Assembly (NCBI GenBank): GCA_022813675.1 | Contig: CP063375.1 | Location: forward strand, 1,128,001-1,192,000 | Source of the DNA: Deferribacteraceae bacterium V6Fe1 | GTDB taxonomy: Bacteria; Chrysiogenota; Deferribacteres; Deferribacterales; Deferrivibrionaceae | Length of the DNA: 64,000 bases | Direction of reading: 5' to 3' | Part shown: positions 4,581 to 61,248 of the stretch, in pieces | Layout of the letters: each line of letters starts with the position of its first letter | How positions within the stretch are numbered: position 1 is the stretch's first letter | Notes under the pieces: model-generated | What the model saw: only the letters and a program-made list of their open reading frames with translations | The model's database searches: none | What the model was told of the DNA's origin: nothing | Translations under genes and position numbers: made by a program

Positions 4581-4704
4581 TAATTTTCACCCTTTCTTTT
4601 TTCTTGTTATACTTAAAAAAATTTAATCAAATTAAACTTTACTCTTTAAATTTTATGATTTTTATACTATGTTTTTATACTAAATATAAAACAAGGAGTT
4701 TTTT

Positions 4705-6096
4705 ATGGGTAAGAATCTTTTTCAAAAGGTGTGGGATATTCATAAAGTTGCCGACCTGCCCGGTGGCAGGACACAATTATTTATAGGTTTGCACCTTATA
4801 CATGAGGTTACAAGTCCTCAAGCCTTTGCCATGATTAAAGAGTTAGGATTAAAGGTCGCATATCCAGATAGGACTTTTGCGACATGTGATCATATAATTC
4901 CGACCGACAATATCTCAAGGCCTTTTGCCGACTCAATGGCTGAAGAGATGATGCAAGCACTTGAAAAAAATACCAAAGAGAATGGGATTACTTTTTTTGG
5001 TCCTGAATCGGGGTATCAGGGGGTTGTGCATATCGTAGGTCCTGAGTTGGGGCTTACACAGCCAGGTATTACTGTTGCCTGTGGAGATTCCCATACGGCT
5101 ACCCACGGTGCTTTCGGGGCGATAGCGTTTGGTATAGGCACTAGTCAGGTGAGGGACGTTTTGGCAACCCAGACAATGGCTCTTAACGATTTAAAAGTGA
5201 GAAGGGTTGAAGTAAACGGTAAACTCAAACCGGGTGTGTATGCAAAAGATATAATTTTGTATTTAATCAGACACTTGGGCGTAAATGGTGGTATCGGGTA
5301 TGCTTATGAATTTGCTGGGAGCACAATAGAAAATCTCTCAATGGAAGGGAGAATGACTGTTTGTAATATGGCAATAGAAGGTGGTGCGAGAGTAGGGTAT
5401 GTTAACCCTGATGCAAAAACTTATGATTACCTGAAAGGTAAAAAGTATGCACCTAAAGGTGAGAAATGGGATAAAATGCTTGCTTACTGGGAGAGTATCA
5501 AGTCTGATAAGGATGCGGAATATGATGACGTGGTGGTATTTAATGCGGAAGATATCGAACCTATGGTCACTTGGGGGATAAATCCGGAGCAGGGGATTGG
5601 CATATCTGAAAAACTGCCGATGGGTGACAATCCATCATTTAAAGAGGCATATGAATATATGAAACTTAAACCGGGTGCCCCTATTAAAGGGACTAAAATA
5701 GATGTGGCTTTTATAGGGAGCTGTACTAATGGTCGTATTGAGGATTTAAGGGAAGCTGCAAAATATTTGAAAGGGAAGAAAGTTGCAAGCCATGTGAAGG
5801 CTCTTGCAGTCCCTGGGTCAGCTACTGTTAAGGCAAAAGCTGAAGCGGAAGGTCTTGATAAGATATTTATTGAGGCAGGATTTGAATGGAGAAACCCCGG
5901 CTGCTCTATGTGTCTTGCCATGAATCCTGACAAGCTTGTAGGGGATCAGATATGCGCTTCTACTTCCAATAGGAATTTTAAAGGAAGACAAGGTTCATCT
6001 TCTGGAAGGACTATTTTGATGAGTCCGGCGATGGCTGCAGCAGCAGCGGTTACCGGTGAAGTTAGTGATGTCAGAGAAGTTTTCGGGTTAAATTAA
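4705..6096 (+). CDS. leuC: 3-isopropylmalate dehydratase large subunit
   Basis: Cytosolic [4Fe-4S] isomerase that converts 2-isopropylmalate to 3-isopropylmalate in leucine synthesis, working with LeuD. It is 463 aa, the usual length of the bacterial LeuC type. The aconitase-fold cluster ligands are visible: GSCTNGR near residue 340 and CSMC near residues 400-403. The N-terminal motif [11 protein letters not shown] and the acidic/His-rich [13 protein letters not shown] also match. AAGGAG precedes the ATG. It is followed 10 nt later by leuD. The upstream AT-rich leader contains two TATACT boxes (4663-4668 and 4676-4681), but no good -35 element. Confidence 0.95.
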
Positions 6097-58122: not shown

Positions 58123-58464
58123 TTAAATAGAGCAAGAGTATCTGTCTATTTTGTCAACTTTTTCCAAATCTTCTTTTATAAGTTTGTCATCTTTTACTTT
58201 TTCGTATAGAAAATCAACGATTTCCCTGATGTGTTTGTTTTCGGTAAGTTTATATACTACCCATCTGCCGTCTTTTGAATCTTCAATTATTCCTGCATAT
58301 TTTAAATTTTTAAGGTGAGCGGAGATTGTGGACAGGGCGATATGAAGTACTTCGTTAATTTCACATACGCACAAATCCCGTTTACGGAGCATTATGGTAA
58401 TTCGCAGTCTGTTCTCTTCGGAAAGAGATTTTAATACTTTTGATACATCTTTTAGGTTGTGCAT
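58123..58464 (-). CDS. ArsR-family transcriptional regulator
   Basis: 113-aa winged-helix protein. The recognition region is LCVCEINEVLHIALSTISAHLKNLKYAGIIEDSKDGRWVVYKL. LCVC in helix alpha-3 is the classical ArsR As(III)/Sb(III) thiol motif, and a further Cys lies near the C-terminus (RYSCSI). No arsenite pump or arsenate reductase is adjacent, so its target may be distant or itself. It heads a long minus-strand gene run. Confidence 0.88.
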   Translation of the reverse strand: MHNLKDVSKVLKSLSEENRLRITIMLRKRDLCVCEINEVLHIALSTISAHLKNLKYAGIIEDSKDGRWVVYKLTENKHIREIVDFLYEKVKDDKLIKEDLEKVDKIDRYSCSI

Positions 58465-58561: not shown

Positions 58562-60049
58562 TTAATTGTTTATACTTTTTAAATATTCTCCATAAATTGA
58601 ACTTGCGCAAATAGTCAAAAATTTTGTCATATCGCTATCACTTCTGGAAGTGAGGATAATTGGGACAGTTGCTCCTAAAACAATATTGGCGACTTCCGCT
58701 CCCATTGTCATTACCCATGCCTTGTAAAGGAAATTTCCACCCTCTATGTGAGGTACAACGATGATATCGGCTTTTCCCGCTACAGGGTTGTCTTTTAATC
58801 CTTTTTTTCTGACCGCTTCCTCGTAAAGTGCCAGGTCATATGAAAGCGGCCCGTAAACGTCCGCATCTTCCCAATTCATTTTAGACAGTTTGTCTTCATG
58901 AAGGGTGGTTGGTAATTTTGCCGATGGGACCTCATTGGCATCAAGAAGAGCAACCTTTGGCCTTGTAACCCCCATAGACTTGGCAACATCAATGGCATTT
59001 CTTATAATTTCTATACTTGCATTTATATCGTTTTCCACAAAAAGTGTCGGGTTTATGCCAGGATCAGTAAGGAATATGAGTCTGTTAACATTCGGTACTT
59101 CAAAAATGCTTACCAGTGACATCCTTCTGCCTGAGGCAATCCCATGCTCTTTATCCAAAATTGCTTTTACAAAATTAGCGGTGTTTATTTTACCTTTCAT
59201 TATCAGGTTTGCTTCTTTGTTTTTAATAATTTCGACACCTTTTCTTGCACAGTCTATCTCATATGCGTCAGATTGGGGGACATCCACTAAGATTACCTTA
59301 TTTTTGTTTATGTGAATATCTTTCAAAAGGGCTTCGGATATTTTTTTATCCCCTACAAAGATGACTTTTTCAATTATATTTTCATCTATTGCAACTTTAC
59401 AAGCTCCTGCAGAAGTTTTGTCGGGGCAGATTAGACAAATGGATTGTTTTTTTAGTAATTTGGCTGCTTGAATTAAATCTCTCATTTTTGAGCCTTTGGT
59501 AAGTTGTGACATTGAGCTGCTGTTGTAGATTGTGGCAAGTATTTTGGCTTTGTCAGTTATGGAATTTATACTGTGTGCTACAGAAGAATCAAAATATAGG
59601 CTGTCCCCTTCGTTAAGCTCAAAATGTTCATCGCCGACGGTAATTTTTAATTTCCCTTCCAATACATAATGAAATTCTTCCCCCGAATGGACACTTACTT
59701 CTGGATTTTCCTTTTTTTCTATTTCCACTATAAACGGTTCAATGTGCTTTCCCGGGTAATGGGGTGCAAGACTTTCATACGAGTATGCATCTTTACGGCT
59801 TATTTTTACCCTTGTATCAGGTGTAGTCTTTTGAGCCTTTTTCCCTTCAAATTCTTGACCGTAGATAAAGGAGTATATGTCAGTATCGAGGCAAGTTGCT
59901 ATTTTCAACAGGTCTGATACGGATGGGCTGGATTTTTCTTCTAGGTAATCTACCAATTGTTGTGTATCGATTCCCGTAAATTTTGACAGGTTTTCAAGTG
60001 TTATCTTTTTTTCAGATAAAAGGTTTTTAATATTGTTGCCAATGCTCAT
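58562..60049 (-). CDS. XRE-cupin regulator fused to phosphate butyryltransferase
   Basis: A single 495-aa frame with three parts. Residues 1-65 are an XRE-type helix-turn-helix (ITLENLSKFTGIDTQQLVDYLEEKSSPSVSDLLKIA). Residues 95-178 are a cupin (HSGEEFHYVLEGKLKI, then GDSLYFDSSVAHSI). From about 190 to the end it is a complete phosphate acetyl/butyryltransferase (LIMKGKINTANF, LTDPGINPTLF, NPVAGKADIIVVP, GGNFLYKAWV). The first two parts equal a standard XRE-cupin regulator, the third a whole Ptb (about 300 aa). Ptb makes acyl-phosphate from acyl-CoA. Start supported by GGGGG 6 nt upstream, 3 nt after the butyrate kinase stop. Confidence 0.88.
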   Translation of the reverse strand: MSIGNNIKNLLSEKKITLENLSKFTGIDTQQLVDYLEEKSSPSVSDLLKIATCLDTDIYSFIYGQEFEGKKAQKTTPDTRVKISRKDAYSYESLAPHYPGKHIEPFIVEIEKKENPEVSVHSGEEFHYVLEGKLKITVGDEHFELNEGDSLYFDSSVAHSINSITDKAKILATIYNSSSMSQLTKGSKMRDLIQAAKLLKKQSICLICPDKTSAGACKVAIDENIIEKVIFVGDKKISEALLKDIHINKNKVILVDVPQSDAYEIDCARKGVEIIKNKEANLIMKGKINTANFVKAILDKEHGIASGRRMSLVSIFEVPNVNRLIFLTDPGINPTLFVENDINASIEIIRNAIDVAKSMGVTRPKVALLDANEVPSAKLPTTLHEDKLSKMNWEDADVYGPLSYDLALYEEAVRKKGLKDNPVAGKADIIVVPHIEGGNFLYKAWVMTMGAEVANIVLGATVPIILTSRSDSDMTKFLTICASSIYGEYLKSINN

Positions 60050-60052
60050 AAA

Positions 60053-61114
60053 CTACCCCCGATATTCATTGATTTGGATTTTGTTTTCCAGAGCAAGTTT
60101 TGCACTCATTAAAAGTGATTCTATTTCATTTTCACCCGGTTCCACAAAGATTTTACTCAAAAAAGATACCCTTTTTGATATCAAGTCAACCAGATATTTG
60201 CTATGAGCAAGACCGCCGGTGAGAATGATGCCATCAATATCGCCATTTACCGCAGCACTGAGAGAGCATATCTCTTTTGCAATCTGATACGCCATTGCGT
60301 TGACAACTTCTTCCTTGTATTTATCCGAATTTTTGATATCCTCTTCGATTTTTATCATATCAACGCTGCCGATGTAAGACATTAGTCCTGCCTGTTTTGA
60401 CACAATTTTAGTGAGCTCTTCAATAGAAATATTGTTTTTTGCAAGATAGTTTTTTACCCCTGACACAGGTAAACCTCCGGCTCTCTCAGGGGAGAATGGT
60501 CCGTCACCGTCTAAGGCGTTGTTTACATCTATAACTTTCCCTTTAGAGTGAATACCAATTGATATTCCGCCACCCAAATGAGCCACTATAAAATTAACCT
60601 CTTCGTATGATTTACCTATTTTGTCGGCAACCTTTCTTGCGGTAGCCTTATGGTTTAATGCGTGGAAAATACTTTTTCTTTCAATATCTTTGAGCCCCGA
60701 ATATCTTGCTATCGGCATCATTTCATCAACTACTACCGGGTCAGCTATAAAAGCTTCACATTTATAGTGTTCAGCAAATTTCTTTGCAAGTATTCCTCCA
60801 AGGTTTGACGCATGTTGACCATTTATCCCGGCTCTCAAGTCTTTAAGCATTTTCTCGTTTACCCTATAGACTCCACCCTCAACAGGATGAATCAGTCCAC
60901 CTCTGCCGATAACAGCGTTAAACGATAGGGCAGGGTGGTTGCTTTGTATAAAATGTTTAATGATATTAAACCTATATTCGAGCTGGTCTATAATTGTCTC
61001 AAACTGTTCGAGCTCAGTTCGTTCATGTTTAAAATTTTCTTTTATTAATTGGTTGTCATGAAATATTCCAACCTTAGTAGATGTAGAGCCAGGGTCGATT
61101 ATAAGTATGTTCAT
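60053..61114 (-). CDS. buk: Butyrate kinase
   Basis: Acetokinase-family enzyme (acyl-phosphate + ADP to acid + ATP), 353 aa. The first phosphate loop is ILIIDPGSTSTKVGIF; HALNHKATARKVA and VAHLGGGISIGIHSKGKVIDVNNALDGDGPFSPERAGGLP define butyrate (branched-chain fatty acid) kinase rather than acetate kinase. With the downstream Ptb-containing fusion it gives a complete acyl-CoA to acid + ATP pathway. GGGGG precedes the ATG. Direction and chain length of the substrate are unknown. Confidence 0.93.
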   Translation of the reverse strand: MNILIIDPGSTSTKVGIFHDNQLIKENFKHERTELEQFETIIDQLEYRFNIIKHFIQSNHPALSFNAVIGRGGLIHPVEGGVYRVNEKMLKDLRAGINGQHASNLGGILAKKFAEHYKCEAFIADPVVVDEMMPIARYSGLKDIERKSIFHALNHKATARKVADKIGKSYEEVNFIVAHLGGGISIGIHSKGKVIDVNNALDGDGPFSPERAGGLPVSGVKNYLAKNNISIEELTKIVSKQAGLMSYIGSVDMIKIEEDIKNSDKYKEEVVNAMAYQIAKEICSLSAAVNGDIDGIILTGGLAHSKYLVDLISKRVSFLSKIFVEPGENEIESLLMSAKLALENKIQINEYRG

Positions 61115-61248
61115 ATTATACCCCCAAGTTTAGTAAGATTAAAATATTAGAAAATAGGCAAAAAATCAAATGTTTTTTGAGGGTAAAATTTGACGTAGAT
61201 TTTAAGCGATAAAAGTTTAGCAGGATTGTTTTGTGAAGATTGTCAGAG

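Follow-up and report, generated by a model that had tools for sequence, protein, structure and literature searches.

Does a DNA-binding domain that is covalently attached to a metabolic enzyme still report to DNA? The question is raised by an operon in the window, the stretch of 64,000 nucleotides of the Deferribacteraceae bacterium V6Fe1 genome that we analysed, in which the butyrate kinase gene buk is followed, at a gap of 3 nt by ORF coordinates, by a gene that joins a helix-turn-helix (HTH) domain, a cupin domain and a fermentation enzyme, phosphate butyryltransferase (Ptb) (Table 1). The first-pass annotation had described this uninterrupted 495-residue frame and suggested that the protein signals acyl-CoA or acyl-phosphate flux to transcription. 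The fusion itself, its intact Ptb, the buk operon, the metabolic link and a palindrome ahead of buk are all supported, but the reporting of the HTH to DNA is not. We favour, at a probability of roughly 0.6, a catalytic Ptb whose former regulator module would serve assembly and perhaps ligand response, with control of the operon exerted in trans by a stand-alone XRE-cupin protein, XC6.

Table 1. Features of the buk-fusion locus and a candidate regulon site, in positions of the window.
Feature	Position	Strand	Remarks
XRE-cupin-Ptb fusion gene	58562..60049	(-)	495 aa, ATG-started, no internal stops
HTH-derived domain, residues 3-60	59870..60043	(-)	five modelled helices, pLDDT about 88-94; DNA-reading features decayed
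Cupin domain, residues 107-175	59525..59731	(-)	profile match and invariant ligand residues
Phosphate butyryltransferase domain, residues 193-486	58592..59473	(-)	SR468-469, K476, GP400-401, D405 and N439 kept
buk, butyrate kinase, first gene of the operon, 353 aa	60053..61114	(-)	TIGR02707 457 bits, over cut-off
Operator-like palindrome TTTAATCTTACTAAAC	61128..61143	(-)	overlaps -10 of putative buk promoter
Putative buk promoter	61141..61169	(-)	TTGATT (61164-61169), 17-nt spacer, TATTTT (61141-61146); inferred from sequence
Possible second operator inside buk	60956..60970	(-)	codons for FNIIK
leuC-upstream palindrome TTTAATCAAATTAAA, candidate regulon member	4622..4636		motif match

In Pfam searches the N-terminus of the window protein matches HTH_26/HTH_3 at residues 6-58 (28.5/26 bits, over cut-off), its middle Cupin_2 at residues 107-169 (55 bits) and its C-terminal part PTA_PTB (PF01515) at residues 193-478 (99 bits), the first two being the HTH_3-type domain and cupin of XRE-cupin transcription factors. 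On the C-terminal part, the phosphate butyryltransferase models of NCBIfam score 220-229 bits, under their equivalog cut-offs; with TIGR02706 the window fusion reaches 220 bits against a cut-off of 410.5 bits, and we therefore name it only Ptb-type, without a substrate. This cut-off is narrow, since even the unfused ptb of a spirochaete operon described below stays under it, at 254 bits. The residues of the catalytic region (SR, K, GP, D, N) equal the consensus of stand-alone Ptb at the same columns. An AlphaFold2 model built on a 47-row alignment, used instead of a 9-row alignment that gave a pLDDT of 64, has a mean pLDDT of 90.5 and a pTM of 0.86, and superposition of its Ptb part on 7vg9, the C. 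acetobutylicum enzyme, gives a TM of 0.94 (target-normalised) and an rmsd of 1.3 Å. Motifs and fold agree with the earlier description of a full-length Ptb.

Full-length fusions number 21, found among the order's relatives and in three other phyla, four phyla altogether. Within the order, nine genomes carry the fusion (that of the window and eight others, in three genera, at 52-92% identity); outside it there are 12 further genomes, namely 7 of 25 in a Desulfurellales-type group, four of these added by further searches, 4 of 393 Spirochaetota, where two near-identical ones were added in the same way, and 1 of 297 in an Acidobacteriota group. Named carriers include a Deferribacteraceae MAG, Calditerrivibrio, Desulfurellales/Hippea and Spirochaetota MAGs. 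The Desulfobacula phylum (395 genomes) and the Fusibacter phylum (398) yielded no fusion, though for these two no positive control applies, and the plasmid and phage collections gave no match that spans 80% of the query, hence no full-length fusion. The distribution is a lower bound, because one contig scan with narrow patterns missed six fusions. A literature search found no paper describing the protein.

Conservation of the full-length fusion across these genomes excludes chance as well as a sequencing or frameshift artefact, including a stop or frameshift between the cupin and Ptb parts. In the Ptb tree all 21 fusions group together as a Ptb subclade of their own (SH-aLRT 99), and in the XRE-cupin tree the 14 known at the time likewise make up a single clade (support 99/98); a single fusion event therefore suffices, and the computation shows that the fusion arose once. 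L044_0, the stand-alone XRE-cupin that belongs to the operon, was considered as a source of the fused part by duplication and rejected, as the two fall in separate clades. The gene buk lies directly upstream of the fusion in 20 of the 21; in L048 alone its place is taken by a LeuA-type synthase.

Does the fused HTH retain what is needed to read DNA? Stand-alone XRE-cupins have Arg at position 11 and Glu at position 36 in 82 of 82 cases. Of the 21 fusions, 17 have other residues at both positions, mostly hydrophobic ones; the window protein is among these and lacks the Arg-Glu pair and the conserved recognition helix typical of XRE-cupin factors. The four spirochaete fusions keep both residues. 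The net charge of the HTH averages -2.8 in fusions against +2.4 in stand-alone XRE-cupins, and is -3 in the window protein against +4 to +6 in its three stand-alone paralogues. Between the genome of the window and its congener G002, the fused recognition segment has 71% amino-acid identity (omega 0.60) and the Ptb part 94% (omega 0.03), whereas two stand-alone XRE-cupin orthologues are 100% identical (dN 0). Of all parts of the fusions the recognition segment is conserved least, whereas in the stand-alone XRE-cupins of the same genomes it is conserved most. Taken pairwise, its conservation falls below that of the cupin in 100% of fusion pairs, compared with 0-18% of pairs in four stand-alone XRE-cupin families. 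This sign alone is no proof of decay, because a fifth stand-alone family, from Desulfobacterota, shows it in milder form, in 84% of pairs; its helix is also acidic, so an acidic recognition helix would by itself be compatible with DNA binding. That family (L064-L105, N-terminus PHINVDYFEDLTG), whose genes lie next to leucine/isovalerate-type degradation genes, may also be drifting from DNA binding, given its acidic, less conserved recognition helix.

The HTH as a whole is still under purifying selection (omega 0.14-0.24). With HTH_3 the spirochaete fusion L049 scores 41.5 bits, and several other fusions, L008 and L043 among them, do not reach the cut-off of either HTH_3 or HTH_26. The HTH fold is kept and its DNA-reading features are lost. 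As the helical fold is still predicted and some constraint remains, a structural role of the fused HTH is likely. With its variable, acidic recognition helix and the loss of Arg11-Glu36 in 17 of 21, the HTH does not support the idea that it reports to DNA; the fallback offered by the first-pass annotation, a vestigial or oligomerisation domain, fits better. DNA binding would be least unlikely in the spirochaete fusions, where R11/E36 are kept.

The cupin has had a different fate. In the alignment of all 21 fusions from four phyla, H121, G123, E124, E125, F126, Y152-S156 and H159 are invariant, among them the cupin ligand residues H121, E125 and H159. Because the pocket is invariant, the cupin probably senses a small ligand, and we infer from this conservation both a cupin ligand and allostery. 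Sequence and fold searches with the N-terminal half return, among other matches, HppE and methylphosphonate synthase. These two are a precedent for an HTH-like domain that serves an enzyme and not DNA.

If not the fusion, what controls the operon? The conserved palindrome upstream of buk, proposed earlier as a check, was found: in the Deferribacterota genera g1 and g2 the consensus TTTARTN3ACTAAA overlaps the -10, with arm variants in G003 (right arm GCTAAA) and G017 (left arm TTAAGT); it is weaker in g8, and the same palindrome recurs at the promoter of the Hippea-type operon. It is unlikely to be a mere -10 element, since its register to the -35 differs between the promoters of buk and XC6. 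A second copy lies within buk, about 173-177 bp from the first in Deferribacterota (173 bp in the window), at codons for F[NSD]xIK (L037:7831, L041:3767, L034:6897, L036:11019, L038:8420, L039:4876, L040:11868). Under synonymous randomisation, the fraction reaching the observed score is 0.05-0.24 per gene, with a mean of 13.4 against 4.2 bits; codon choice there favours the palindrome, and the copy is possibly a DNA-loop partner or a coding coincidence.

XC6, a stand-alone XRE-cupin outside the window (G000:1945418-1945990), has an intact recognition helix, SKALISQIENN, and the palindrome sits 39-51 nt ahead of its start; in the Hippea operon's own stand-alone regulator the helix reads SKGLISQIEN. 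With a matrix built without XC6 sites, 7 of 9 XC6 promoters score at least 9.5 bits against 7 of 138 background promoters (Fisher 4e-7, with orthologues that are non-independent), and the palindrome is mostly absent from the promoters of other XRE-cupin paralogues. A genus that has XC6 without the fusion also carries the XC6-promoter palindrome (20.9 bits in L181, 14.0 in L129). In the genus of the window the XC6 site scores a weak 10 bits, and 2 of the 9 have a weak site or none. The genome-wide motif yields 16 sites against 10 for a control pattern, with matches inside genes too, many by chance. Further intergenic sites in the genome of the window lie ahead of ald, PFOR, ilvBNC and leuC, the last of which (3-isopropylmalate dehydratase large subunit, 4705-6096, (+)) has the palindrome 83 nt upstream.

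Some details of these loci may be recorded here. In the congener G002 (C3:97571) a motif match has letters identical to the leuC-upstream palindrome, and the alanine dehydrogenase promoter (L168:6950-8112; G000:1851096) bears a perfect palindrome, TTTAGTTTAACTAAAC, kept in G002, and an extra ACTAAAC half-site. In several Deferribacterota (L122:7252-9991) two different stand-alone XRE-cupins, XC0 and XC6, flank a conserved pair of histidine kinase and hexapeptide transferase genes, adjoining the pantothenate genes for ketopantoate hydroxymethyltransferase, pantoate ligase and aspartate decarboxylase.

If the fusion were the reader of this operator, one would hardly expect its recognition helix to drift as the operator remains constant. 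From the sequences, XC6 is a likelier regulator of buk-fusion than the fused HTH, and the simplest account, by analogy with Pseudomonas XRE-cupin factors that repress adjacent metabolic genes (PMC7901475), would be that XC6 represses a pyruvate/branched-chain gene set including buk-fusion.

The enzymatic side of the protein is best seen in its gene context. In Deferribacterota TIGR02706 gives the nine fusions 200-222 bits and every other protein at most about 70; no other protein was found that could be the Ptb of the phylum, and the fusion is therefore the only evident source of acyl-phosphate for Buk there. The Hippea-type operon runs stand-alone XRE-cupin, POR gamma, GltD/PorD-like, POR alpha, POR beta, buk, fusion. 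A spirochaete operon (L148:8859-13100) runs iorA, iorB, unfused ptb, buk, fusion, and so carries an unfused Ptb as well. Such POR/IOR-buk-fusion layouts would be expected for a route from 2-oxoacid through acyl-CoA and acyl-phosphate to acid and ATP. By sequence, the nearest stand-alone XRE-cupins are from Desulfobacterota and neighbour AMP-ligase, carboxyltransferase, enoyl-CoA hydratase, acyl-CoA dehydrogenase and HMG-lyase-like genes, a leucine/isovalerate-type set. The substrates of the fusion are, from gene context, probably branched-chain or aryl acyl groups. The link to 2-oxoacid/branched-chain metabolism is borne out by the POR/IOR operons and by the palindrome sites at ilv/leu/ald. 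The text of the Deferrivibrio metallireducens paper makes no mention of butyrate kinase or butyryltransferase. An ArsR/SmtB-type metalloregulator gene, at 58123-58464 of the window, immediately follows the fusion on its strand; the two adjoin in the window's genus only.

How do other readings fare against this evidence? A trigger enzyme, in which a catalytic Ptb also uses its HTH to bind the buk operator and to signal acyl-CoA/acyl-phosphate or the cupin ligand to transcription, would explain why a conserved palindrome covers the -10 of the operon's promoter, as autoregulated XRE-cupins would give; the high-confidence HTH fold and the R-E pair kept in spirochaete members agree with it, and NadR, BirA and PutA are fused examples (PMC8249747). 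It would, however, require a constant operator to be read by a recognition helix that is acidic and variable even between congeners, with R11/E36 gone from 17 of the 21. Moreover, stand-alone XC6 is preceded by the same palindrome also in the fusion-free genomes L181 and L129, and in Hippea-type operons the palindrome governs a stand-alone XRE-cupin of the operon itself, whose HTH is canonical (57 bits); we regard this reading as quite improbable. It is doubtful, too, that the family forms a series from a DNA-binding trigger enzyme in spirochaetes, where R-E is kept, to a cupin-sensing, allosterically gated Ptb in Deferribacterota and others; if true, a transcription-factor sensor would have shifted from gene control to direct enzyme control.

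An ordinary Ptb with a purely vestigial N-terminus, whose HTH-cupin aids only folding or oligomerisation without sensing, is unlikely: the cupin residues are invariant in 21 fusions of four phyla, beyond the needs of a scaffold, and all known fusions retain the whole module, although the HTH is relaxed by rates and pairwise conservation and the module may persist merely through single origin and inheritance. A role of the fused Ptb as an acyl-CoA sensor without catalysis, like the PTA-like domain of MaeB, in a mainly regulatory protein seems very improbable given that the catalytic-region motifs are all kept and the fusion is the sole Ptb-like protein of Deferribacterota genomes with buk. This reading draws on malic enzymes, which use PTA-like domains as putative regulatory parts (PMC2700814; MaeB structures), and on the separate ptb adjoining buk in one spirochaete operon, which we also count against our preferred explanation as regards the role of the fused Ptb there.

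The preferred explanation is thus a working phosphate butyryltransferase that would have captured an XRE-cupin regulator as its N-terminus. 2-Oxoacid:ferredoxin oxidoreductases would make acyl-CoA from amino-acid-derived 2-oxoacids, probably branched-chain or aryl, and the fusion and Buk would convert it through acyl-phosphate to acid and ATP. The HTH-cupin module would now serve assembly as a dimer or oligomer, and the cupin, probably on sensing a small ligand, would adjust Ptb allosterically in place of transcription. XC6 would set buk-fusion transcription in trans at TTTARTN3ACTAAA over the -10, within a pyruvate/branched-chain regulon of buk-ptb, ald, PFOR, ilvBNC and leuC.

Each part of the fusion has known relatives. 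With Ptb (TIGR02706; 7vg9 from C. acetobutylicum; 1yco of the branched-chain type) it shares the C-terminal fold, the motifs and the buk partner, but it has a 190-residue HTH-cupin N-terminus, scores under the TIGR02706 cut-off and forms its own subclade. The XRE-cupin factors ErfA, PsdR and PauR (PMC7901475) have the same HTH-cupin order, H-x3-E...H residues and metabolic gene neighbourhood; unlike them, the fusion is enzyme-bound, its recognition helix has decayed and R11/E36 are lost in 17 of 21. HppE and methylphosphonate synthase (1zz6, 6b9s) also hold an HTH-cupin module within an enzyme, yet there the cupin is the catalyst, whereas catalysis in the fusion lies in a third, unrelated domain. 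Like NadR, BirA and PutA (PMC8249747), the fusion is an enzyme covalently bound to a DNA-binding-type domain; those bind DNA, and its sequence evidence points against binding. MaeB malic enzymes and MaoC-Ptb fusions (PRK08190) are likewise built with a PTA/Ptb-type domain, but with different partner domains, and the PTA part is regulatory in MaeB and looks catalytic in the fusion.

The fusion of these anaerobic bacteria looks like a regulator recycled as built-in enzyme control or as an assembly part, and it cautions that an architecture of HTH plus enzyme does not alone make a trigger enzyme. Here the absorption of a bacterial transcription factor by a metabolic enzyme, with the DNA-reading surface apparently lost and the sensor pocket kept, can be traced, and the possibility that cupin sensors control enzymes directly becomes testable. 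For the Deferribacterota, it supplies a candidate Ptb to a phylum otherwise without one, and it predicts a pyruvate/branched-chain regulon together with its operator.
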